Shown piece by piece: positions 2,641-60,468 of a DNA stretch of 64,000 nucleotides; the stretch's first letter is position 1, and each line of letters begins with the position of its first letter. The stretch covers positions 1,333 to 65,332 of the forward strand of contig NZ_LT635834.1 of the NCBI RefSeq assembly GCF_900128475.1, in the 5' to 3' direction. This DNA is from Mediterranea massiliensis (GTDB lineage: Bacteria; Bacteroidota; Bacteroidia; Bacteroidales; Bacteroidaceae). The notes beneath the pieces are model-generated. The model saw only the letters and a list, made by a program, of their open reading frames with translations, was not told where the DNA came from and did not search any database. Position numbers and translations under genes: made by a program.

Positions 2641-4638
2641 TTATTTCCAGGCGATGAGGGCCGACTGGGCAGGCACCGTCAGTTCGGCACCCGACACCTT
2701 GGCCAGGCCGCCTTCATTAATCGCCCCGTCCTTGCACACTATAGTATAATTCCCCTGGGGCACGGCCACACGGGCGGGCTCGCGACGCGAGTTGAGCACC
2801 ACGACAATGTCTTCCCAGCGGTCGCCGCCGGCATGTTCCTTCAGGCGCCAGGCCACGAGGTTCTTGCCCTCGACAGGCAGGAACTCCAGATGGCGGCGCA
2901 CCAGCTCGGCCGAACCCAGGCGGAAGGCCGGATGGTTCTTGCGCAGCTGTATCAGGCCCTTGTAGTAGGCAAAGACATCGGCATGCAGGGCCTTGCGGCT
3001 CCAGTCGATGGCGTTGATGGAGTCGGGACTCTGGTAGCTGTTGTGCACGCCCTTCTTGTCGCGCATCACCTCCTCGCCGGCATAGATGAAGGGGATGCCC
3101 TGCGAGGTGAAGACGGCCGTCTGGGCCAGCTTGTCGAGGCGGGCCAGCTCGTCGTCCTTGATGCCGGGGATGCTGGCACGCAGGCGGTCGACGAGGCACA
3201 TGTCGTCGTGACACGACACGTAGCTGATCATCTGCGTAGGTTCGCCCGCCCAGGGTGCCTGGCTGTAGTTGACGGAGTCGTTGCACACCTGCGGATGCTG
3301 CACGGCACCCACGATGCCAAACTTGATGCTCTCCTCACCGCCCGGCAGGCCTGCCAGGAAGGCGCCCTGCTTGTTGTCGTTGAAGGGGCCGCGGAGGGCG
3401 TCGCGCATCTCATCGCTGAAGGCGGCGATGCCCGGCATGCGGTAGGTATTGGCCTTCATGGCCAGCGAGTCCTGCGGGAGCTGGGGCGCCTGGGCCGCCC
3501 ATCCCTCGCCGTAGACGATGATGGAGGGGTCGAGGGCCGTGAGGGCGGCACGCACCTCGTTCATCGTACGGATGTCGTGGATGCCCATCAGGTCGAAGCG
3601 GAAGCCGTCGATGTGGTACTCGCGCGCCCAGTGGAGCACGGACTCGACGATGTACTTGCGCATCATGGGACGGTCGCTGGCCGTCTCGTTGCCGCAGGCC
3701 GAGGCGTCGGCATAGGTGCCGTCGGGGCGCTGGCGGTAGAAGTATCCGGGAGCGGTGCGCTCGAAGTTGCTCCCGTCGATGCTGAACGTATGGTTATAGA
3801 CCACGTCGAGGATGACGCGGATGCCTGCCTGGTGGAGCGCCTGCACCATCTGCTTGAACTCGCGGATGCGCACGTCGGGGCGGTAGGGGTCGGTGGCATA
3901 CGAGCCGTCGGGCACGTTGTAGTTCAGCGGGTCGTAGCCCCAGTTGTAGCGGTTCTCGTCCAGGCGGGTTTCGTCGATGGAGGCATAGTCGTAGGAGGGC
4001 AGCAGGTGGACGTGCGTCACGCCCAGCTCGCGCAGGTGGTCGATGCCCGTGGCCAGTCCTTCGGGCGAACGGGTACCCGCCTCCGTCAAGGCCAGGAACT
4101 TGCCCTTGTGCTCGATGCCCGATGCGGGCGAAATGGAGAAGTCGCGGTGGTGCATCTCGTAGATCACCACGTCGGCCGCCGAGCGGAGGGGCGGACGGCG
4201 GTCGTCGGCCCAGCCTTCGGGGTCGGTAGAGCGAAGGTCGATGATGGCGGCCCGATGGCCGTTCACGCCGACGGCCTTGGCAAAGATACCGGGCGTATCG
4301 CCCAGCCAGCGGTCGCCGGTCTTGACGTTGAAGGTGTAGAACTTGCCCAGGAGGTCTTCCGCAACGGTGGTGTGCCACACACCTTCTTCACCCGCCTCCA
4401 TGCTGACGGTGCGGTAGGCATGTCCGCCCTCGCCCTCGTTGTAGAGCATGAGGCGCACCTCGTCGGCCGTCGGTGCCCAGAGGGAGAAGCGGGTGCCCTC
4501 GGGGGCATATTCCATCTCCGCCAGGCTGCCCGAGCGCACGGGGTAAAGCTCGTAGGAGGCATACTCGTTCTTCGCGGGCGCACAACCGGTAGCCGTTGCC
4601 ACCGCCACACCCAAAATGGCCAAATCATTCAGTTCCAT
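2641..4638 (-). CDS. pulA: Type I pullulanase (GH13), probable lipoprotein
   Basis: A 665-residue GH13 enzyme that debranches alpha-1,6 bonds in pullulan, starch or glycogen. The N terminus ends in TATGC (Cys19), a plausible lipobox although no Arg/Lys precedes the hydrophobic stretch. A CBM48-like domain occupies about residues 40-130. The type I pullulanase signature YNWGYDP is at 231-237. Catalytic candidates are Asp349 (FRFDL), Glu378 (YGEGW) and Asp478/479 (SCHDD). All core residues are present, so the enzyme should be active. Being outside or on the outer membrane would fit a role in dietary glucan use, but no SusC/SusD pair is adjacent. Confidence 0.92.
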   Translation of the reverse strand: MELNDLAILGVAVATATGCAPAKNEYASYELYPVRSGSLAEMEYAPEGTRFSLWAPTADEVRLMLYNEGEGGHAYRTVSMEAGEEGVWHTTVAEDLLGKFYTFNVKTGDRWLGDTPGIFAKAVGVNGHRAAIIDLRSTDPEGWADDRRPPLRSAADVVIYEMHHRDFSISPASGIEHKGKFLALTEAGTRSPEGLATGIDHLRELGVTHVHLLPSYDYASIDETRLDENRYNWGYDPLNYNVPDGSYATDPYRPDVRIREFKQMVQALHQAGIRVILDVVYNHTFSIDGSNFERTAPGYFYRQRPDGTYADASACGNETASDRPMMRKYIVESVLHWAREYHIDGFRFDLMGIHDIRTMNEVRAALTALDPSIIVYGEGWAAQAPQLPQDSLAMKANTYRMPGIAAFSDEMRDALRGPFNDNKQGAFLAGLPGGEESIKFGIVGAVQHPQVCNDSVNYSQAPWAGEPTQMISYVSCHDDMCLVDRLRASIPGIKDDELARLDKLAQTAVFTSQGIPFIYAGEEVMRDKKGVHNSYQSPDSINAIDWSRKALHADVFAYYKGLIQLRKNHPAFRLGSAELVRRHLEFLPVEGKNLVAWRLKEHAGGDRWEDIVVVLNSRREPARVAVPQGNYTIVCKDGAINEGGLAKVSGAELTVPAQSALIAWK

Positions 4639-49872: not shown

Positions 49873-51670
49873 AAGAGGCTGTCTCAAAATAGACTTGAGA
49901 TGGCCTCTGTTTGTTTCATCTCAGATTGAAGTCATTTTTCTCAAAAGAGGAGTTTACAAACTTACTTTTGAAGATATCATTCTTTCAAACTGTTTATTCG
50001 TTGTCATAAGCCTCCTACGAGGCTACTTTTGCAAGATTATGTGCCATGGCCAGCAGTCCGAACTCAATCTCAACCTTCTTAAGTCCACGAAGCTGGAACC
50101 TCTTGAAGTGCTTGTTGTTCTTGAGGTTTCCAAATACAGCCTCCACATCCTGTGGTCGCTGACTGCGATATTTCAGACCTTCATCAGAGAGTAGCTTTTC
50201 ACGTTCTCTTTCCTTGATTTTCCTCAGACGGTGATTTACCTGTACAATCCTTTCCGACTGGCTTCTGTGACACCGGCATCTTAACGGGCAGCCTTTACAG
50301 TTACGTGCTCTGTATCTTGATATGGTCTGCTCAAAACCGTTGTCTGTCGAACGCGTTATATCAGCAAGTCTTTCCATCCTTTGTCCCATCGGACAGTACA
50401 TTCCGTCCGTTTCTTCATTATAGTAGAAGTTGGCAGACAGAAAAGGGTCATTTCTGAAGTTCTTTTTCTGTTCCTTATGAAAATAATTGTACTTTATGAA
50501 GGTTTTAATGCCATGTCTGGAAGCATACAGATAGTTCTCTTCACTCCCGTATCCGGCATCACAGACAGATATGTCAGGGTATCTGTCGTAAAGGAAATGA
50601 AAATCATCCATATGCAGAGAATAGGTGGAGGTATCTCCCGCACACTGATGGAGGGTATAGTCCAGAATGAACTGCCTGTTGGTACTGATTTGGGTATTAT
50701 ATCCGGGTTTGAGTTGTCCATTCCTCATATGGTCTTCTTTCATACGCATGAAGGTGGCGTCATTGTCCGTCTTTGAATAGCTGTTGCGTCCGTCAAGTAT
50801 CTTTCCCTGTGATTCATATTTCCTGAGCTGTTCTGGCCATGACTTCCTTACACGTCTTACCTTCGCTTTCATTTTCTTGTCCGCATCCACTTCATTCAGG
50901 GCATCATCAATCTGCTTGAGTGCCTTTTCTACTTTCTCCGGAGTGATATCCTGACAGGTGACCGGAGCGGAACCACGCAGTTCCTGTTTGGTGACAGACT
51001 CGGCGTACTGCCATATCTCTTCAAGCTGTTCCGCGATTCTGGATATGCGGGTATGTATGGACTTGCCCCAGACGAACGTATAACGGTTGGCGTTCGCCTC
51101 CATCTTCGTCCCGTCGGTACAGGCTACATCCAGACTTACAAAACCTTCCGACACGAGAAACTTTACAATGGTGGCAAATATTGTCTTCAGTACATCCTTC
51201 AGCCGGCTGCTGCGAAAACGGTTGAGGGTGTTATGATCAGGAGTCACATTGCCGGTAAGCCACATGAAGCGGATGTCATTGCGACAGAATTCTTCTATGC
51301 GACGGCTGGAATAGATATTACGCAAATAAGCATAGACAAGAATTTGAAGCATCATACGTGGGTGGTACGCAGAACAGCCTTTAGGGGAATACTTACGGTA
51401 AAGTTCTTCAAGGTTTATCTGTTCAATGATACGGTGAACAACACGGACTGGATCGTTCTGGGGGATAAAATCGCCTAAACATGGAGGTAAAAGCAGATTA
51501 TCGTTGGATGTGTAACTTTTAAACATTATCTTTGGGATATCTTAACTTGGTTCCCTAAGATACAAAAAATTAGGGAAACGGGCAAGTTCTGGCTGAGAGA
51601 AGTTCGGGCTTGCCCATTTTTTTATAGACACAAAAAAGGCCATCTCAAAGTTTATTTGAGACAGCCTCTT
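49873..51670. mobile_element. IS1182-family insertion sequence, intact
   Basis: Imperfect terminal inverted repeats of about 40 bp: left from 49873 (AAGAGGCTGTCTCAAA) and right ending at 51670, reverse-complementing to the same start, with both continuing TTGAGATGGCCT. The single transposase is intact. It is inserted between the ends of cutC and panD, so no gene is broken. No clear target duplication is seen. It is less GC-rich than its surroundings, suggesting recent acquisition. Confidence 0.93.
50015..51526 (-). CDS. IS1182-family transposase
   Basis: A 503-residue DDE transposase. An N-terminal DUF772-like domain (FIPQNDPVRVVHRIIEQI, then YLRNIYSSRRIEEFCRND) precedes the catalytic core with Asp in VACTDGTKMEAN, Asp in CDAGYGSEENY and Glu in DVEAVFGNLKNN. 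A cysteine-rich segment CKGCPLRCRCHR lies in between. No frameshift or stop is visible, so it is likely functional. It is transcribed inward, away from panD and towards cutC. Confidence 0.95.
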   Translation of the reverse strand: MFKSYTSNDNLLLPPCLGDFIPQNDPVRVVHRIIEQINLEELYRKYSPKGCSAYHPRMMLQILVYAYLRNIYSSRRIEEFCRNDIRFMWLTGNVTPDHNTLNRFRSSRLKDVLKTIFATIVKFLVSEGFVSLDVACTDGTKMEANANRYTFVWGKSIHTRISRIAEQLEEIWQYAESVTKQELRGSAPVTCQDITPEKVEKALKQIDDALNEVDADKKMKAKVRRVRKSWPEQLRKYESQGKILDGRNSYSKTDNDATFMRMKEDHMRNGQLKPGYNTQISTNRQFILDYTLHQCAGDTSTYSLHMDDFHFLYDRYPDISVCDAGYGSEENYLYASRHGIKTFIKYNYFHKEQKKNFRNDPFLSANFYYNEETDGMYCPMGQRMERLADITRSTDNGFEQTISRYRARNCKGCPLRCRCHRSQSERIVQVNHRLRKIKEREREKLLSDEGLKYRSQRPQDVEAVFGNLKNNKHFKRFQLRGLKKVEIEFGLLAMAHNLAKVAS

Positions 51671-51711: not shown

Positions 51712-52065
51712 TCAGCCCACCACTCGGTTGGTGTCCGGGTCGGGGAAGACCACGGTCGGTTTGAAAGTCTTGGCTTCCTCGAAGTCCATCAGTGCGTAGG
51801 ACATGATGATGACAATGTCGCCGGGCTGCACACGCCGTGCGGCGGCGCCATTGAGGCAGACCTTGCCGGAGCCCCGTTCACCTTTAATGATATAGGTCTC
51901 AAAACGTTCGCCATTGTTGTTGTCGGCAATGTAGACCTTCTCGCCGGCAATCATGTTGGCCGCATCCATGAGGTCCTCGTCAATGGTGATGCTGCCCATG
52001 TAATTCAGATTAGCTTCCGTGACACGGGCGCAATGGATCTTGGACTTCAATACTTCAATCATCAT
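51712..52065 (-). CDS. panD: Aspartate 1-decarboxylase
   Basis: A 117-residue pyruvoyl enzyme making beta-alanine for pantothenate. Self-cleavage at YMGSITID (Gly-Ser, near residues 24-25) gives the active pyruvoyl group. [18 protein letters not shown] and [10 protein letters not shown] are conserved. It may start at either of two adjacent ATGs (52065 or 52062). It lies 18 bp downstream of panC in the same direction, and the IS right end lies 42 bp beyond its stop. Confidence 0.96.
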
Positions 52066-52083: not shown

Positions 52084-52929
52084 TTAAGACTTGTACTTGA
52101 TATTATCAATCAGGCGGACCTCCCCGCAAAAGACGGTAATGCAACCCACGGCATAGTCGGTATCGGCCCAGTCGGCAATCTTCTGCAGCGTGTTGCCGTC
52201 CACCAGCTCGAAATACTCCAGCCGGAGGCCCGGAGCGGCGGCGATGGCATCCTCGACAAATTGTTGCGTCTGGGCCACGGTGTGAGTGGCAGCGTAGTCG
52301 ACGCTGGCAAAAAGGGTCTGCGAAATCTTCAGGGCCTGCTGGCGCTGCTCGGCCGAGAGGCGGGTGTTACGGCTGCTCAAAGCCAGGCCATCGGCCTCGC
52401 GGACGATGGGGCAGCCAACAATCTGGAGGGGAAACTTCAGCTGACGGACCATCTCACGAATGATAGCCAACTGCTGGAAATCCTTCTCGCCGAAGTAGGC
52501 GCGGTCGGGCTTCACCAAGTCGAACAGTTTGCTCACAATCTGGCAGACGCCGTTGAAGTGGCCCGGACGGTAAGCCCCTTCCATCACCGTGTCGAGCGGC
52601 GGGAAACTGAAGTGACGCATATCGGGTTCGGGATAGATTTCCTCGACCGAAGGCGCAAAGACTACCGTGGCTCCGCATTGCTCCAGCAAGCGGCAGTCGG
52701 CCTCTAGCGTACGAGGATATTTAGCCAAATCGTTCTTATCGTTGAATTGGGTAGGATTGACGAACACACTGACAACCGTGGCATCGTTCTCGGCCACACT
52801 GCGCTTCACGAGCGAGGCATGCCCCGCATGCAAAGCACCCATTGTAGGTACCAGGCCTACCGTTTTACCCTGGGCACGCAGGTTAGCCAATGCCTCCTGC
52901 AAGTCCTTGATAGCATGTACTATTTTCAT
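52084..52929 (-). CDS. panC: Pantothenate synthetase
   Basis: A 281-residue enzyme that joins pantoate and beta-alanine using [16 protein letters not shown] contains the HxGH nucleotide motif, with [16 protein letters not shown] and [10 protein letters not shown] as further family blocks. ATG at 52929 (MKIVHAI) is chosen over an upstream in-frame ATG. It is cotranscribed with panD; panB is not in the window. Promoter elements probably lie in the 244-bp divergent gap with the glycogen locus. Confidence 0.96.
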
Positions 52930-53118
52930 TACTTTTTTAGTTAGATATTTACAGGGTTGTTTCAAAAAGCGGTGCAAAATAAGCTATTATTTGCCACATA
53001 ACGAAGAAATATTGCATTTTTCTCATAAAATCCACCTGTGAAGAGGAGTATAAAGGCCCCTATGCAGAATTGAAATACAAGTACTTAACAAATCATAAGG
53101 AATAATAGCCAAGGCTTT

Positions 53119-53151
53119 TTTGGCGTAATGAGCGTTTTTTTTGTAACTTTG
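53119..53151 (+). promoter_or_regulatory. Promoter of the glycogen-type locus (rightward arm)
   Basis: TTTG (53119-53122), 21 bp, TAACTTTG (53144-53151), 22 bp before the ATG at 53174. Confidence 0.75.
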
Positions 53152-53173: not shown

Positions 53174-53992
53174 ATGACAAAGGCTAATAAGGTTTTATTT
53201 ATCACCCAAGAAATTACTCCTTACGTACCGGAAACCGAATTGTCTCTGACCGGCCGCAATCTGCCGCAAGCCATCCAGGAAAGAGGCAGAGAAATCAGGA
53301 CGTTCATGCCCAAATGGGGAAATATCAACGAACGGCGCAACCAGCTCCACGAAGTGATCCGCCTGTCGGGTATGAACCTCATCATCGACGATACTGACCA
53401 TCCACTCATCATCAAGGTAGCCTCCATCCAGTCGGCACGCATGCAGGTATACTTCATCGACAACGATGACTACTTCCAAAACCGCTTGCAGGCAACCGAC
53501 GAAAACGGAGAGGAATACGAGGACAACGATGCACGCACCATCTTCTACGCCCGCGGTGTACTTGAAACGGTGAAGAAGCTGCGCTGGTGTCCCGACATCA
53601 TCCATTGCCAAAGCTGGATGACGGCTCTAGCTCCCCTCTACATCAAGAAAGCCTATCGGGACGAACCTTCGTTCAGAAGTTCCAAAGTGATTTTCTCACT
53701 GTATGGCAACGACTTCAAGCAGACCTTCCATCCGGAATTCACCAACCTGCTGATGCTGAAGGGCATCACCAAGAAGGATATCTCCATACTGAAGGATCCC
53801 ATCAACTATACCACCCTATGCAAGCTGGCAGTAGAATACTCGGACGGCATCATCCAGCAGAGTCCCAATGCCAACCAGGAAGTACTGGACTATGCACGCA
53901 GCCTGGGCAAACCGATACTGGAATACCAGAACGACGACAACTTTGCCGACCGCTGCAACAGCTTCTACGACTTGGTGAGTGAAACCGAATAA
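53174..53992 (+). CDS. Half-length glycogen/starch synthase-like (GT5 N-terminal domain) protein
   Basis: A 272-residue protein equivalent only to the N-terminal catalytic domain of GlgA (usual length about 480). LFITQEITPYVPET begins the Rossmann fold, and IIHCQSWMTALAPLYIKK matches the middle of the domain. The ADP-glucose loop, normally K-T-G-G-L, reads ETELSLTGRNLP (residues 20-31), so the binding Lys and Gly pair are missing, and no C-terminal nucleotide-binding half follows: the next gene is a lipoprotein. I infer it is not a normal synthase. It is first in the glycogen locus with its own promoter. Confidence 0.8.
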   Translation: MTKANKVLFITQEITPYVPETELSLTGRNLPQAIQERGREIRTFMPKWGNINERRNQLHEVIRLSGMNLIIDDTDHPLIIKVASIQSARMQVYFIDNDDYFQNRLQATDENGEEYEDNDARTIFYARGVLETVKKLRWCPDIIHCQSWMTALAPLYIKKAYRDEPSFRSSKVIFSLYGNDFKQTFHPEFTNLLMLKGITKKDISILKDPINYTTLCKLAVEYSDGIIQQSPNANQEVLDYARSLGKPILEYQNDDNFADRCNSFYDLVSETE

Positions 53993-54031
53993 ATATCCTT
54001 AAACTACATAGAACCTGAACTCGTAAATAAA

Positions 54032-55630
54032 ATGAAAGCAAAATTCATAGGAGCCCTGCTCACCTCGGTGCTGACTCTGCTGACAGCCTGCGATGATACG
54101 ACCAACACACTGGGCATGAGCATGCTTCCCTCATCAGACGGAATGTCATCGCACACCACAACTTTCCAGGTTACTACCCAATCGTACCTGGTAGATTCGG
54201 TCTACGCCAAGACCAGTACCGGCTACGTGGGCCGCTTTACCGACCCGGACTTCGGCAGCTACACCGCCAGCTTCCTGACGGAACTGAACTGCACGGACAA
54301 CTTCAAGTTCGAAGATATCCTGCCCGATGTCTACGAGGAATACATCGAGAACGATACACTGAAAGGAAAGGGTACACTGGTGGATGAAAAGGTAAGAGGT
54401 GTCCGACTGATTGTCTACTACAGCACGTGGTTTGGAGACTCGCTGAACGCCTGCCGCATGAGCGCCTATGAACTGAACAATCAATGGGCACAGGAACGGA
54501 AAGACGAGAATCGCCACTATCGCTATACGGACATCAATACGGACCTCTACAAGGGCACCCTGCTGGGACGAAAGGCCTATACAGCCTACGACGCCACCGT
54601 GTCCGACTCTATACGGAAAGCCACCGACTCCAACGGGAATGCCATCTACTCGCCGAACATCGTGTTCAACCTGGATACGGAAATCGGACAGAAGATATAC
54701 GACGAAAACAAGAGCCATCCCGAATATTTCAAAAATGCGGACGCCTTCATCGAAAATGTATTCCCCGGCGTATGCATCCAGAATGACTATGGCGACGGTA
54801 CCATTCTCTACGTGGACCGTGTGGACCTGGAATTCCAGTTCCAGTTCCATTACGTGGACAGCCTGGGCGTGAAGCTGACGAAAAAGGTGAACGATGCCAA
54901 CGGCAGCATCGGCGACGACTCGACCTACATTGGTCGGCAGACCATCTTTGCATCTACCAAGGAAGTAATCCAAGCGAACCATTTCGAAAACTCGGACAAG
55001 CTAAAGGAAAAGGCAGCCGAAAAAGAATGGACCTACATCAAATCGCCGGCCGGCATCTTTACGGAAGCTACCCTGCCCTACGATGAAATCTATGAGGAAC
55101 TGGCCAACGACACACTGAACGCCGTGAAGCTGACCTTCACCAACTATAACGAAAAGAGCAACTACAAATTCAGCATGAACGTACCCAGCAACGTACTGTT
55201 ACTGCGCAAACAGGACTTAAGCACGTTCTTTGAAGAAAATAAGGTGAACGACAACATCACTTCATTTACGGCCAGCCACAACAATGTAGCGACCAACCAA
55301 TATACTTTCCAGAACATCGCCCGACTGGTATCGACCTGCATCAATGAAAAGAAGGCTGCCCGCAATGCCGCCCAACAGAGTGCAGGAGCCAACTGGGACG
55401 AAGCGGCCTGGAATGAGGAATGGAATGCACAACACCCCGACTGGAACAAGGTATTGCTCATCCCCGTCAGCATCACGACACAAAGTACAAGCAGTACCAG
55501 CAACAGTAGCACCACCACAGCCGTACAGCACGACCTGCAGCCCGGCTATGCCAAACTGCAAGGCGGTGACCCCGAAAACGGAGGTACAAAGCTGACGCTG
55601 GAGGTAACCTACACACAATTTGAACAATAA
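54032..55630 (+). CDS. DUF4270 lipoprotein
   Basis: A 532-residue protein with a lipobox (LLTAC, Cys20) after a typical signal peptide. DUF4270 covers most of it: GYVGRFTDPDFGSYTASFLTEL, an internal Tyr/Asp-rich region, and YANQ-like beta-strand segments to the end. Near residues 430-500 are Asn/Gln/Ser/Thr-rich stretches. Function is unknown; DUF4270 proteins are probably surface or periplasmic. It starts 39 bp after the GT5 half protein, so it is likely in the same operon, although an extracytoplasmic protein in a glycogen locus is unexpected. Confidence 0.85.
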   Translation: MKAKFIGALLTSVLTLLTACDDTTNTLGMSMLPSSDGMSSHTTTFQVTTQSYLVDSVYAKTSTGYVGRFTDPDFGSYTASFLTELNCTDNFKFEDILPDVYEEYIENDTLKGKGTLVDEKVRGVRLIVYYSTWFGDSLNACRMSAYELNNQWAQERKDENRHYRYTDINTDLYKGTLLGRKAYTAYDATVSDSIRKATDSNGNAIYSPNIVFNLDTEIGQKIYDENKSHPEYFKNADAFIENVFPGVCIQNDYGDGTILYVDRVDLEFQFQFHYVDSLGVKLTKKVNDANGSIGDDSTYIGRQTIFASTKEVIQANHFENSDKLKEKAAEKEWTYIKSPAGIFTEATLPYDEIYEELANDTLNAVKLTFTNYNEKSNYKFSMNVPSNVLLLRKQDLSTFFEENKVNDNITSFTASHNNVATNQYTFQNIARLVSTCINEKKAARNAAQQSAGANWDEAAWNEEWNAQHPDWNKVLLIPVSITTQSTSSTSNSSTTTAVQHDLQPGYAKLQGGDPENGGTKLTLEVTYTQFEQ

Positions 55631-55655
55631 TCCCTTTATACACACAACATAAAAT

Positions 55656-55701
55656 AAAGAAAGACTCCCGCCCTCCTTCTGAAGGGCGGGAGTCTTTCTT
55701 T
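55656..55701. terminator. Strong bidirectional terminator
   Basis: AAAGAAAGACTCCCGCCCT (55656-55674) and its perfect complement (55683-55701) enclose an 8-nt loop, with A and T runs either side, ending both the DUF4270 and the GH57 transcripts. Confidence 0.92.
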
Positions 55702-55715
55702 ATACTGTTCTAGCG

Positions 55716-57116
55716 TTACTCTTCCTTAGTCTTGGCTGTTGTCTTCTTCTTGGTAGCAACAGTCTTGGAAGTAGTTTTCTTGGCAGCAGCCTTCTTTTCG
55801 GTCAGCTTCTCCACCGTTTCCTTTTCCTTCACCAGCTTGCTGCGTACATCATCAAGTTCCTTATGCAGCTCATCAATCTCATCCCCCTGGTTCTTGATGG
55901 TAGTAAGCAGGGCATTCAGTTCTTCATTGTCGATGTCTACAGGGTACAGAGAATCCACCCGCTTGATGAAATCGCCCAAGATATTCATGTAGTTAGTGAA
56001 TGCATCGTAAGGCGACTCATAGATACCACGATACAGAGAGATACTGGAACTCTTGGTAGTCATGAAACGGAAATTATTGCTGGCCTGCAGATAATTCCAG
56101 TCCTGCTTGATACGACGGTCGTCGCACAAATGTACGCGTTCGGCCACACTATAGAGCTTGTTGAAAGCTTCACGCTGCATCACGTTTCCAAGCCAGCAGC
56201 TGGTATCTCTCTCTTCGTCGACCCATGACATCGGATAGGGAACATCGAGCTGGGATACGGACTTCAGCTTCGTCACGATTTCGGTTGGTGTAGAGAACGT
56301 AATGCCCTTCTCCTTGGCACAAGCAGGCAACGCCTTCATGAACTCCAGAATATTGGAAGACAGCGGCTGATACTTGCCCAGCGCACACAATTCCATAAAG
56401 ATATTGATGACCTGCTCTTCCTGCGGCAATGAATCAATCCAGGAGATATACTTGTCAGCAAACAGCGGATACTCGCTCCAGTCGGAATTGGAGAAACGCA
56501 GACTGATATCGTCGGACAACTTGAAGTCGCGCAACAGCAACTTCAGATTGGGATTCATGTTGCAATGGTATACGTAGTGCGGACTCTTCCAACCCAGCAC
56601 ATGCTTGGCACCCTCGGTCAGCATACCCTTGAAGCCCATGCTGGCCACTACGGCACCGATCTCATCGTTGTAGATCAGGCTCGAGTTACGGAACACCTTG
56701 GGGGTTTTGCCAAACATCTGTTTCATCTTGTTGCTCTGGCGCATCACTTCTTCCTTGAAGCAATCTTCGTTGGCCAACGAAGACAGGCCATGGGAATAAG
56801 GTTCTGCCAGGAATTCGCAGCAGCCGGTGTCGTTCAGCTGATGCAGGAGGTCCAAAACGGTAGGAGCATAAATCTCCAGCTGTTCCAGTGCCACACCCGA
56901 GATGGAGAAGGCGACTTTAAAAGCTCCTCCCGAATTTTTGACCATTTCCAGCAGAGTTGTCAGTGCCGGAATATAAGAATGTTCGGCCACATCACTGATA
57001 CTGGTTTCATTGGCGTAGTCATCATAATAATAGTGGTCAGTGCCAATGTCGAAGAAACGATAACGTTTCAGGTGAATAATCTGGTGTATTTCAAAATAAA
57101 GACAAATCGTTCTCAT
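55716..57116 (-). CDS. GH57 alpha-amylase-like protein with Lys/Thr-rich tail, catalytic residues replaced
   Basis: A 466-residue protein. GH57 motifs 1 and 2 are recognisable (FEIHQIIHLKRYR and GCCEFLAEPYSHG). At the nucleophile motif, active homologues have FRNTELIYN; here it is FRNSSLIYN (142-150), Ser replacing Glu. At the acid/base motif, active ones have FMDYETFGEH; here FMELCALGKY (240-249), Glu replacing Asp. The C-terminal 60 residues form a coiled coil then a basic tail of Lys, Thr and Ala. It lies 17 bp downstream of the GT4 gene in the same direction. Activity is doubtful, so a binding or scaffold role is more likely. Confidence 0.85.
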   Translation of the reverse strand: MRTICLYFEIHQIIHLKRYRFFDIGTDHYYYDDYANETSISDVAEHSYIPALTTLLEMVKNSGGAFKVAFSISGVALEQLEIYAPTVLDLLHQLNDTGCCEFLAEPYSHGLSSLANEDCFKEEVMRQSNKMKQMFGKTPKVFRNSSLIYNDEIGAVVASMGFKGMLTEGAKHVLGWKSPHYVYHCNMNPNLKLLLRDFKLSDDISLRFSNSDWSEYPLFADKYISWIDSLPQEEQVINIFMELCALGKYQPLSSNILEFMKALPACAKEKGITFSTPTEIVTKLKSVSQLDVPYPMSWVDEERDTSCWLGNVMQREAFNKLYSVAERVHLCDDRRIKQDWNYLQASNNFRFMTTKSSSISLYRGIYESPYDAFTNYMNILGDFIKRVDSLYPVDIDNEELNALLTTIKNQGDEIDELHKELDDVRSKLVKEKETVEKLTEKKAAAKKTTSKTVATKKKTTAKTKEE

Positions 57117-57133
57117 TTCCTATTCTTGTTTTG

Positions 57134-58402
57134 TTATTTACCATAGTTTCTTAATACATTCTCGTAGAGGGCACGGATACGCAGGCCTACCTTTTCCCAT
57201 GTGATACCGTCAACTTCCTTCTTGCCCTCTTCCTGCAGATACTGGAACAGGGCCGGATTGGTACAAATGGAATAAATGGCATCGGCCATGGCGTGGATAT
57301 CCCAGTAATCTACCTTAATGACCTTGTCCAGAATTTCACCGCAGCCCGACTGCTTGGAGATAATGGAAGGAGTGCCGCACTGCATGGCCTCCAGCGGCGC
57401 TATGCCGAACGGCTCCGACACGGAAGGCATGACAAAAACGTCGCTGTCCTTGTAAACCTCGTACACCTGCCGTCCCTTCATGAAGCCGGGGAAATGGAAG
57501 CGGTCTGCGATGCCGCGCTCGGCAGCCAGATTGATCATGGCATTCAGCATATCGCCCGAACCAGCCATCACAAAACGAATGTTCCGTGTACGGCTCAATA
57601 CCATAGCGGCAGCCTCCACGAAATATTCCGGGCCCTTCTGCATGGTGATACGACCCAGGAAGGTGACAATCTTCTCCTTGGAATGATCGGGACGAGGAAT
57701 GTCCTGCAGATCCTGCGACAGCGGATACACGGCATTGTGCATGGCAAACACCTTCCGCGGGTCCTGATGATATTCGTTGATAACTGTACGGCGGGTCAGC
57801 TCGGACACACACATGATACAGTCGGCATAATCCATACCGTTCTTCTCGATGGAGTAGACTGTCGGATTGACCTTACCGCGCGAGCGGTCGAAGTCCGTGG
57901 CATGTACATGAATGCACAATGGCTTGCCACTTACCATCTTGGCATGTACCCCGGCCGGATAGGTCAGCCAGTCGTGGGCATGGATAATATCAAATTGTTC
58001 CTTGCGTGCCACCACCCCGGCAATGATGGAGAAGTTATTGATCTCTTCATGCAGATTGCCCGGATAGCCGCCGGCAAACTCCATGCAGCCCAGGTCGTTG
58101 ACGTGCAGATAAGAAAAATCGGCATAAATATGGTCGCGGTAACTGTAATAGTCCTCCGGCGTCATCTGACCATAAAGGCGGGACTTCAGATAGTCGTAGT
58201 CGACCCCGCGCCAGACAACCGGCACCTGGTTCATTCCGACAATCTTGAGGAACTTCTCTTCATCACCGTTAGGCTTAGGCATGCAGAAGATGGTTTCTAC
58301 ATCGCCTTGCAGACTCAGGCCTTTGGTAATGCCGTAAGAAGCTACCGCCAGACCTCCATATATTTTGGGAGGAAATTCCCATCCAAACATTAATACTTTC
58401 AT
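57134..58402 (-). CDS. GT4 glycosyltransferase, probable glycogen synthase
   Basis: A 422-residue GT-B enzyme. The N-terminal loop is PPKIYGGLAVASYG, and the C-terminal half has GRITMQKGPEYFVEAA and the donor-site motif SEPFGIAPLEAM (EX7E). All expected residues are present, in contrast to the GT5-like neighbour. Position with debranching enzyme and GH57 protein suggests it builds the alpha-1,4 glucan. Its start overlaps the stop of the debranching gene (ATGA), implying coupled translation. Confidence 0.88.
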   Translation of the reverse strand: MKVLMFGWEFPPKIYGGLAVASYGITKGLSLQGDVETIFCMPKPNGDEEKFLKIVGMNQVPVVWRGVDYDYLKSRLYGQMTPEDYYSYRDHIYADFSYLHVNDLGCMEFAGGYPGNLHEEINNFSIIAGVVARKEQFDIIHAHDWLTYPAGVHAKMVSGKPLCIHVHATDFDRSRGKVNPTVYSIEKNGMDYADCIMCVSELTRRTVINEYHQDPRKVFAMHNAVYPLSQDLQDIPRPDHSKEKIVTFLGRITMQKGPEYFVEAAAMVLSRTRNIRFVMAGSGDMLNAMINLAAERGIADRFHFPGFMKGRQVYEVYKDSDVFVMPSVSEPFGIAPLEAMQCGTPSIISKQSGCGEILDKVIKVDYWDIHAMADAIYSICTNPALFQYLQEEGKKEVDGITWEKVGLRIRALYENVLRNYGK

Positions 58403-60366
58403 TTGCGTTCCTCCTCTTTTTTCTCTATTTGTTCATACTTATACAGCAAACTCAAAATGCGCAGGATTTCGGCCACATTCATCGCAAACGAGATGGCTCC
58501 TCTCCCAACAAACGGCGGATTGCCATCGAAGAGTTCGGGCAGAGTACTGATGCAATGGCGGCCCATCTCGTCTTCCATGCCGATGAGATGCCGCTCCACA
58601 AACGAAATGCCGCTCATCTTGTAGATGCGCAGATAAGCTTCCATGTAGAAGCCCATCAGCCAGGGCCAGGCTGTTCCCTGATGGTAGGCATAATCGCGCT
58701 GCGTCTGCGGCCCTACATAGTTCGGATTGTAACCGCCGCTCTTCGGGCTCAACGTACGGAGACCTTTCGGTGTCAAGAGTTCCTTGGTCACAATATCCAG
58801 TACCTGGCGCTTCTGTACGCGGTCCAGCGGAGAATAATCGAAAGCCACGGTAAATATCATATTCGGACGAACACTCCAGTCCATCATATAGCCATCCACA
58901 TAATCGAACAGATAGCCATATTCATTGCGGAAGACTTCGACAAACGACTTGCCCGTCACTTCCGCCTGTTGCTCCAACGCCTGTGCCAGGGGCTCGTTAC
59001 CGCCTTCGCGAACCATGTCGGCCACGAAGCGAAGGGCATTGTACCACAACGCGTTGATTTCGACCACATACCCCGTACGCGGAACGACCGGCCGTCCATT
59101 GGCCACGGAGTTCATCCACGTCACCGGATGTTCGGTCCCGTTGGTATAGAGCAGGCCGTTGTCGTGCAAGAACAGGTTGTCGTGCTTGCGGCTACGGATA
59201 TACTCGAGCATATCTTCGAGCAGGCTGCCATACATCTGGCGGCAACGCTCACGGGAAGTGAACTTGGCATACTGCTGCAAGCACCAGATAGCCCACAACA
59301 GGATGTCGGGATGCTCCATCTCGTAAATTTTATAGGTCACAGTCTCGCCGTTCATAAACTGGCGGAGCGCCTTCTCGGCCGTCTTCATCACATCCTCGAA
59401 CTCATCCTGTTCGTCGACGGCCAGCGTCAGGCCGGGCAGTGAGATGAAGAGGTCGCGCGCACGACACTTGAACCAGGGATAGCCTGCAAGGATGTAATGT
59501 TCGTCACCCTGCTTGTTGTGGAACTGATGGGCCGAGTTCTTCAGGCAGTGGTAGAAGCTGTCGCGCGGAGTACGGTCGGCTGCTTCTGCCTCGAATGTCT
59601 GCTTCAGCTTGCGGGTGTCCACTTCCGAAATACCGGCAGAGAACACGACGCTCTCCCCTTTCTTGATATCCACTTCAAAATAACCGGGCACATACAGGTC
59701 CTCATTGAAATCGTAACCACGTTCCTGCTCCTTCGGATACTCAATGCCCCGATACCAGTCGGGCTGGAAGTGGAATTCATTTTTCTTGTTCAGCTGCATG
59801 AACAATTCCGGATAGCCGGGATACATGCACGTCTTGATACCGTTCTCCACCAGCTGGTACTCACGGCTTGCCTGAGGATTCTCGTGCGTGTACTCGCGCA
59901 CGCTGCGGAAAGCCAGGAACGGCCGGAAACGTAAAGTCGTGGCCGAATGGGCATCGACCAGCGTGTAGCGTATCAGAATGCGGTTCTCATGGTGTACAAA
60001 AATCTTTTCCTTACGGAGGATAACGCCTCCCACACGGTAAGTTGTAGCCGGGACATGCTCGCAGTCGAACTCACGGATGTATTTATGTCCGTTGGGACTG
60101 AAATGATTGCCTTGATACTTGTGCAATCCCAGGTTAAACTCTGCACCGTGCTGAATTACCGTTTCGTCCAAAGAAGAGAGCAGCACATGATTCTCATCGT
60201 CCAAGTTGGGGACGGGGATCACCAACAAGCCGTGATATTTGCGTGTGTTACAATCTACAATCGTTGTACAATGATAGGCACCCGACTTGTTTGTACGGAG
60301 TATCTCCCGCGGGAGCGACTCTTCCAAATTAATCATCAGCGTCTTGTCAAATCGTAAATAACTCAT
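58399..60366 (-). CDS. Glycogen debranching enzyme (amylo-alpha-1,6-glucosidase, GH133)
   Basis: A 655-residue protein with the bacterial GDE_N domain (about 1-250) and the GDE_C (alpha/alpha)6 barrel (about 290-645). Conserved blocks are LAGYPWFKCRARDLFISLPGLTL (ends with RD at Asp305) and VVPRTGYVVEINALWYNAL (Glu436). The motif I expect as TWMD reads TWMN (Asn419), so a normally conserved Asp is missing. Whether the enzyme still cuts branches is uncertain. It heads the leftward arm of the glycogen locus and overlaps the GT4 gene by 4 nt. Confidence 0.9.
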   Translation of the reverse strand: MSYLRFDKTLMINLEESLPREILRTNKSGAYHCTTIVDCNTRKYHGLLVIPVPNLDDENHVLLSSLDETVIQHGAEFNLGLHKYQGNHFSPNGHKYIREFDCEHVPATTYRVGGVILRKEKIFVHHENRILIRYTLVDAHSATTLRFRPFLAFRSVREYTHENPQASREYQLVENGIKTCMYPGYPELFMQLNKKNEFHFQPDWYRGIEYPKEQERGYDFNEDLYVPGYFEVDIKKGESVVFSAGISEVDTRKLKQTFEAEAADRTPRDSFYHCLKNSAHQFHNKQGDEHYILAGYPWFKCRARDLFISLPGLTLAVDEQDEFEDVMKTAEKALRQFMNGETVTYKIYEMEHPDILLWAIWCLQQYAKFTSRERCRQMYGSLLEDMLEYIRSRKHDNLFLHDNGLLYTNGTEHPVTWMNSVANGRPVVPRTGYVVEINALWYNALRFVADMVREGGNEPLAQALEQQAEVTGKSFVEVFRNEYGYLFDYVDGYMMDWSVRPNMIFTVAFDYSPLDRVQKRQVLDIVTKELLTPKGLRTLSPKSGGYNPNYVGPQTQRDYAYHQGTAWPWLMGFYMEAYLRIYKMSGISFVERHLIGMEDEMGRHCISTLPELFDGNPPFVGRGAISFAMNVAEILRILSLLYKYEQIEKKEEERK

Positions 60367-60438: not shown

Positions 60439-60468
60439 CAAAAATACAAATTAATGTATACACGCAAA
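60439..60468 (-). promoter_or_regulatory. Promoter of the debranching-GT4-GH57 operon
   Basis: On the minus strand TTTG (60465-60468), 18 bp, TATTTTTG (60439-60446), giving a leader of about 70 nt. Confidence 0.68.

Follow-up and report, generated by a model that had tools for sequence, protein, structure and literature searches.

Predicted loss of catalysis in two conserved proteins of a GDE-GT4-GH57 operon in the Bacteroides/Prevotella group

Two putative transcription units converge at the locus

We examined a 64,000-nucleotide stretch of the Mediterranea massiliensis genome (NCBI RefSeq assembly GCF_900128475.1, contig NZ_LT635834.1, positions 1,333 to 65,332 of the forward strand; hereafter, the window), in which positions 53174..60366 hold a putative glycogen operon with two predicted inactive enzymes. 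Open frames were confirmed for all five genes named or spanned in an initial annotation of this region. Three of them lie nearly end to end on the minus strand and encode an archaeal-type debranching enzyme (GDE; 58399..60366, 655 amino acids, Pfam GDE_N and GDE_C), a GT4 glucosyltransferase with its core residues present (57134..58402, 422 amino acids, Pfam PF00534/PF13692), and a GH57 protein (55716..57116, 466 amino acids). On the plus strand, a 272-amino-acid frame (53174..53992, Pfam Glyco_transf_5) corresponds to the N-terminal Rossmann domain of glycogen/starch synthase and is referred to below as the GT5 half. It is followed 39 bases downstream by bamH (54032..55630), a gene absent from the initial annotation, which encodes a surface lipoprotein of the Bacteroidota BAM complex, formerly DUF4270. 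Its product scored above the cutoff of NCBIfam NF053687 (778.3 versus 670 bits) and matched PDB 9his_G with an E value of 1e-111.

A terminator-like hairpin of 20 bp (55655..55702, 20 pairs, assigned to neither strand) is predicted from the sequence between the convergent bamH and GH57 genes; the region contained 8 terminator-like sites versus 6.3 expected in shuffled sequences. The motif TAnnTTTG, which we take to be the Bacteroidota -7 promoter element, was found at TATTTTTG (60439..60446, minus strand), upstream of GDE, and at TAACTTTG (53144..53151, plus strand), 22 bases upstream of the GT5-half start. Both are candidate promoters by pattern match only, the window having 50 such matches versus 23 expected. 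Since the GT5 half-bamH pair and the GDE-GT4-GH57 genes converge on the hairpin, the locus appears, as far as sequence can tell, to consist of two transcription units. Its initial description as one glycogen locus holds for GDE-GT4-GH57, which forms one operon of conserved order, but not for the GT5 half, which belongs to a separate bamH/panC-panD unit.

GH57 and GDE lack expected catalytic residues

The GH57 protein has the catalytic-domain fold and matches the Pfam family. In profile alignments, position 146, aligned to E123 of 1k1w, is Ser (codon 56681-56679), and position 242, aligned to D349 of 2b5d, is Glu (codon 56393-56391). We take E123 and D349 to be the catalytic residues of GH57 enzymes, a nucleophile Glu and an acid/base Asp, respectively; as initially annotated, the nucleophile and the proton donor are both missing. 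Conserved sequence region 1 (CSR1) reads HQIIH in place of HQPFR. We predict that the GH57 protein of the window lacks catalysis. Its C terminus (55716-55900) is predicted to form a long helix with a Lys/Ala/Thr-rich tail recalling histone-like tails, a trait shared by intact and altered GH57 proteins. The single PADLOC match fell on the coiled-coil region of GH57 and was taken as chance.

Both domains of GDE were recognized (GDE_N, 285.1 bits; GDE_C, 243.4 bits), and the protein scored below the cutoff of NCBIfam TIGR01561 (298.9 versus 364.15 bits). The Asn previously noted in its WMD motif was confirmed: the motif reads WMN, with N419 (codon 59112-59110) in place of the general acid, D1241 of 5d06, and R302 (codon 59463-59461) replaces the Trp of the WGRD motif, aligned to W1075 of 5d06. 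GDE of the window is likewise predicted to lack catalysis.

The GT4 synthase had been described as intact, and R251, K256, E330, and E338 were indeed present in all 76 named loci that could be aligned. The loci examined here were the best 80 of at least 573 named loci and represented Bacteroides, Phocaeicola, Mediterranea, Paraprevotella, Prevotella, Hoylesella, and Xylanibacter, with many metagenome-assembled genomes. GT4 scored below the cutoff of NCBIfam TIGR02149 (120.9 versus 302.4 bits). Its donor loop reads KxxGGLAV in the window and 15 other named loci, and HxxGGLGT or HxxGGLAT in the others covered; the latter form was seen in 41 aligned loci, largely from Prevotella.

The substitutions are fixed in sampled relatives of the Bacteroides/Prevotella group

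The altered residues are not confined to one strain. Among the 120 closest listed GH57 homologs, all of which retained long frames, E242 was found in 120 and S146 in 119; N419 and R302 were found in 120 of the 120 best-listed GDE homologs. Within the named loci, S146 and E242 were each present in 76 of the 80, a catalytic residue was seen at neither site in any, and N419 occurred in all 71 in which GDE was aligned. The proposal that these substitutions are not random decay therefore stands insofar as decay of one strain is meant, for they are fixed in the sampled relatives from Bacteroides, Phocaeicola, and Prevotella. They are not conserved throughout the order, as GH57 and GDE are mostly intact in other Bacteroidales.

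GH57 and GDE each had a match in 182 of 198 Bacteroidales genomes, whereas a phylum-wide draw yielded GH57 in only 6 of 198 genomes, the window genome included (all genome sets were samples). In 89 aligned GH57 rows, 5 of them from other orders, position 146 was Glu in 82, and position 242 was Asp in 53, Asn in 25, Glu in 4, Thr in 4, Ser in 2, and Gly in 1; the five other-order genomes had intact GH57. Position 419 of GDE was Asp in 42 of 79 rows, Asn in 34, and Thr, Ala, and Ser in 1 each.

Other positions remained conserved. H11, E101, and D203 of GH57, among other residues, were invariant across an alignment of both GH57 classes, and E436, D488, and E611 of GDE were invariant or nearly so. 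Together with the acidic nature of Glu242, this would be compatible with both proteins still being enzymes, acting on another glucan or through other residues (Glu242 plus another group in GH57, another carboxylate in GDE), but the near-universal Ser146 at the nucleophile position of the closest homologs argues otherwise, as does the joint loss of the WGRD Trp and the WMD Asp of GDE in the main clade. Moreover, the Asp1241 to which N419 aligns is needed for the glucosidase activity of fungal GDE (PMC4837477). We consider retained catalysis quite unlikely.

The operon order is conserved, and the GH57 state parallels a GT3-GT35 arrangement

The order GDE, GT4, GH57 was kept in all 52 fetched regions that showed the three genes, most of these regions having been preselected for the presence of GH57 and GDE on one contig. 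The three genes were found together in 71 of the 80 named loci; the other 9 loci begin so close to the end of a contig that GDE would not be seen.

In most genomes with intact GH57, glycogen synthase GT3 was located in a frame of ~1,400 amino acids, often directly after GH57. Nine such frames, eight of them adjoining GH57, were read and represent GT3-GT35 fusions; the one scanned against Pfam contained PF05693, DUF3417, and PF00343. The window genome has GT3 (554 amino acids) and GT35 (854 amino acids) as separate neighbors on another contig. This difference followed the state of GH57: all 42 GH57-intact genomes for which a GT3 row was listed had the fused form (31 linked to GH57, 10 not linked, and 1 unclear), and 25 of the 28 such genomes with altered GH57 had a split and unlinked GT3, with 3 fused. 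These calls were based on open-frame length, checked on nine fused frames and two split loci, and GT3 rows were listed for all but 14 of 84 genomes. The 777-amino-acid frame of genome G293 was probably cut by a contig end, and the DNA of G401, listed with a 1442-amino-acid frame, contains two frames. In G389, no GT3 adjoined GH57. G373 (loci L199 and L200) had a longer GT3, of 612 amino acids, at another site; a phosphorylase-like frame directly followed its GH57, and a GlgB-like frame adjoined its GDE. G315 carried two GDE plus GH57 cassettes (contigs C23 and C3), which were 77-79% and 55-63% identical to the window proteins, and the first alone entered the analysis.

Losses of GH57 and GDE and the presence of GlgB

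Out of 78 genomes with both GH57 and GDE, the catalytic residues were lost from both proteins in 29, from GH57 only in 5, from GDE only in 7, and from neither in 37. Double loss marks a clade of 34-35 rows around the window in GT4 trees.

We compared the state of GH57 with the presence of the branching enzyme GlgB, defined by a TIGR01515 match with an E value of at most 1e-45; only 3 of 198 genomes were above the family cutoff, and four (G378, G380, G381, and G407) were counted as lacking GlgB by elimination. In the first set, all 37 genomes with altered GH57 had a GlgB-type match, and all 18 genomes without such a match had intact GH57. The prediction for GH57 was then fixed beforehand and applied to 58 further genomes, with the same outcome: GH57 was intact in 22 of 22 GlgB-minus genomes, and 5 of 5 genomes with altered GH57 had GlgB. 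Combined, 42 of 42 GH57 losses occurred with a GlgB-type GH13 match, and 40 of 40 genomes without a match had intact GH57. The match in the window genome carries CBM48 and alpha-amylase domains; its branching activity is assumed.

In a 139-row GT4 tree, the state of GH57 changed at least 7 times and that of GDE 16 times. The GDE changes comprised about 11 losses, 10 of which fell on GlgB-plus branches (P = 0.042), and 5 returns to Asp. Such toggling between Asp and Asn at position 419 suggests a mild effect and would favor retained GDE activity. The GT4 trees were quick and midpoint rooted, and the direction of change was inferred from them.

Pullulanase was considered as a cause of GDE loss and rejected. 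TIGR02104 scored over its cutoff in 35 of 198 genomes, and there is no one-way rule, because several GDE-lost genomes (G241, G297, G300, and G401, among others) had no over-cutoff match. The window itself carries, at 2719-4521 on the minus strand, a gene for a type I pullulanase (TIGR02104, 808.5 bits).

Proposed glucan-binding partners or slow decay

We tentatively favor the reading, to which we give a chance somewhat short of even, that GDE and GH57 are non-catalytic alpha-glucan-binding partners of GT4, with the GT5 half in its own panC/panD-bamH neighborhood. A binding role is preferred over decay because the Bacteroides group has retained the frames, the operon, and the substitutions alike and because GDE changed from Asp to Asn in 46 of 50 altered rows. 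In the laboratory, glycosidases meant to bind without cutting are usually made by replacing Asp with Asn. In the proposed sequence of events, GlgB would have made GH57 catalysis dispensable, and in the ancestor of the Bacteroides/Prevotella group both GH57 and GDE would have become non-catalytic, with GT3 and GT35 separating from each other and leaving the operon. Asp-to-Asn changes at acid positions would leave glucan-holding pockets, which may keep the acceptor chain near GT4. A bolder version, in which GDE-GT4-GH57 would be a three-part synthase whose two dead-enzyme lectins, derived by repeated Asp-to-Asn change, hold the primer as a bacterial answer to glycogenin, seems to us unlikely.

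Several results weigh against a binding role and the events proposed for its origin. Among the 57 held-out genomes with both genes, both proteins were altered in 1, GH57 only in 4, GDE only in 12, and neither in 40, which rules out a general coupling of the two losses outside the main clade. Double loss is thus the mark of one clade, and elsewhere GH57 and GDE were lost separately. The 46 Asn rows of GDE come mostly from one clade as well. For GDE, the GlgB rule, likewise set beforehand, held in 21 of 22 held-out GlgB-minus genomes and was broken by G310, which lacks GlgB and reads WMN; we retain the rule for GH57 alone. For GH57, 7 of 7 losses mapped to GlgB-plus branches, but these make up 62% of the branch length (P = 0.036), and independent pairs were too few for a sign test. 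With relatedness allowed for, the tie between GH57 loss and GlgB presence is suggestive, not strong. Ancestral branching activity is likewise unproven, because CSR4 of the intact GH57 members reads DYETFGEH and differs from the branching-enzyme fingerprint, given as ELF(Y)GHW (PMC11206854).

Constraint was also relaxed after loss, more clearly on GH57. At 70-80% GT4 identity, GH57 and GDE were 64.0% and 60.5% identical in 259 pairs of genomes with both losses and 73.2% and 62.9% identical in 44 both-intact pairs. GH57 was less conserved in the both-lost pairs in 5 of 5 GT4-identity bins. GDE was less conserved in 3 of 5, with 44.2 versus 53.4% in the 55-60% bin, 60.5 versus 62.9% in the 70-80% bin, and 69.3 versus 81.1% in the bin over 80% (5 intact pairs); it was equal in the 65-70% bin and higher in the 60-65% bin. 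One bin had suggested that GDE evolved no faster after loss, a notion that was dropped as the bins together were mixed. The conservation ratio for the window is due in part to its fast-evolving GT4, whose branch is long (0.40 versus ~0.05-0.08 for the nearest rows).

This relaxation is what slow decay would produce, that is, a drift toward loss of two proteins with no function of their own after GlgB and other enzymes had made them unnecessary. The assortment of Asn, Glu, Thr, Ser, or Gly at position 242 in different GH57-lost rows fits decay too, as do the uncoupled losses outside the main clade and the 16 of 198 Bacteroidales genomes without a GH57 match and 16 of 198 without a GDE match, some of them drafts. 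Decay would not readily explain the long frames and identical substitutions of the 120 closest listed homologs, the joint presence of the three genes wherever contig ends allow it, or the predominance of Asn in GDE, though many of the Asn rows represent one clade. On balance, we regard decay as rather unlikely.

Relation to known systems and implications

The GH57 protein resembles an alpha-amylase-like (AAMY-like) GH57 group without one or both catalytic residues, whose members were judged very unlikely to work as typical enzymes (PMC6037648, citing Janecek and Blesak 2011); the window GH57 lacks both residues. Here, by contrast, GH57 stands in a defined operon alongside another altered enzyme, follows the GlgB rule, and has lost its residues several times independently. 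Bacteroides was not named in the main text of that paper (0 occurrences). The same three families are clustered in the archaeon Picrophilus torridus (GT4-GH133-GH57; PMC11046441), where they are described as putative enzymes. In Bacteroidales, the cassette is often extended by the GT3-GT35 fusion, and within the Bacteroides group its GH57 and GDE are altered. Both the GH57 group and, from an archaeon, the three-gene cassette are thus already known. Our literature searches found no work combining pseudoenzyme, glycogen, and Bacteroid, and no title on this operon under presumed Bacteroides thetaiotaomicron locus tags (titles only). As far as these searches go, three points are new: the joint predicted loss of catalysis from two proteins of a single conserved operon, the association of GH57 loss with GlgB and with the way GT3 and GT35 are arranged, and the assignment of the GT5 half to a unit of its own with bamH.

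Glycogen metabolism of Bacteroides and Prevotella is poorly defined; according to a gut review, Bacteroidetes lack GlgC (PMC10395257). If the binding reading is true, conserved dead enzymes would run part of a glycogen operon, and their annotation as amylase and debranching enzyme would be wrong. A question raised in print in 2024 is whether archaea that have no classical branching enzyme use the amylase-type GH57 in its place (PMC11046441). The GlgB/GH57 pattern (40/40 intact without a match, 42/42 losses with one) bears on this question, and the intact GH57 proteins of GlgB-minus Bacteroidales would provide natural test material.

The GT5 half is set apart in a unit with bamH, panC, and panD

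The GT5 half matched a single family, PF08323, as expected of an N-terminal GT5 Rossmann domain. Positions 53228-53239 encode PETE (residues 19-22) where the KTGG donor loop is expected; the KxGG motif is therefore absent, as first annotated, and the C-terminal GT domain of GlgA is missing as well. KTGG was found in 0 of 34 aligned GT5-half sequences, nor was it found among the 120 best-listed homologs, and the block NERRNQLHEVIRLSGMN was strongly conserved. The GT5 half cannot be the missing N-domain of GT4, which itself matches the families of both GT-B halves. A Bacteroidetes GlgA-GT5 fragment is mentioned in one sentence of PMC11046441, which likewise concerns a conserved partial GT5 gene; that sentence does not include its neighborhood.

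Homologs of the GT5 half were found in 30 of 31 relatives and in all 148 genomes of the phylum draw, although outside the class many of these matches are full-length GlgA. Within the class, the best match lay in a frame of 258-397 amino acids in 36 of 36 other genomes of the phylum draw, 33 of which had no GT3 glycogen synthase and 33 no GH57 of this type. Because the GT5 half is present in class genomes without GT3, the case for a role in glycogen metabolism is weakened. Its neighborhood across the class is formed by bamH, next on the same strand at 52 of 59 loci (the window included), and by panC, divergent from it at 49 of 59, with several of the others broken by contig ends; panD homologs adjoin many of the loci. 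In the window, panC (pantoate-beta-alanine ligase; Pfam PF02569, E = 2.1e-105) occupies 52084..52977 on the minus strand, with a possible alternative start at 52929, and panD (aspartate decarboxylase; Pfam PF02261, E = 8.6e-52) occupies 51712..52065 on the same strand.

The initial annotation placed the GT5 half, GH57, GDE, and GT4 in a single glucan-synthesis complex with primer, scaffold, and sensor roles. All four do have alpha-glucan-enzyme folds or families, and the GT5 half is near GDE-GT4-GH57 in the window genome, as it is in 13 of the 80 named loci, whose flanks were covered for no more than 8 kb. In all 7 genomes of other families with both coordinates listed, however, the GT5 half and GH57 were on different contigs of draft assemblies. 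This, the convergent transcription and hairpin separating the two genes, and the presence of the GT5 half, a separate unit with bamH, in genomes of the class that have no GT3 or no GH57 of this type make a single complex very improbable.

The class-wide comparison of sequences and neighborhoods yielded no positive function for the GT5 half. BamH is a known member of the Bacteroidota BAM complex (PMC12578637 and PMC12611786). The main texts of these two papers contain neither of the words glycogen and starch synthase and so do not treat the GT5-half neighbor by either name. Across the class, a gene for half a starch synthase thus adjoins one for outer-membrane assembly on the same strand. Just beyond panD, a frame of 503 amino acids (50015-51526) looks by eye like an insertion sequence (IS) transposase.

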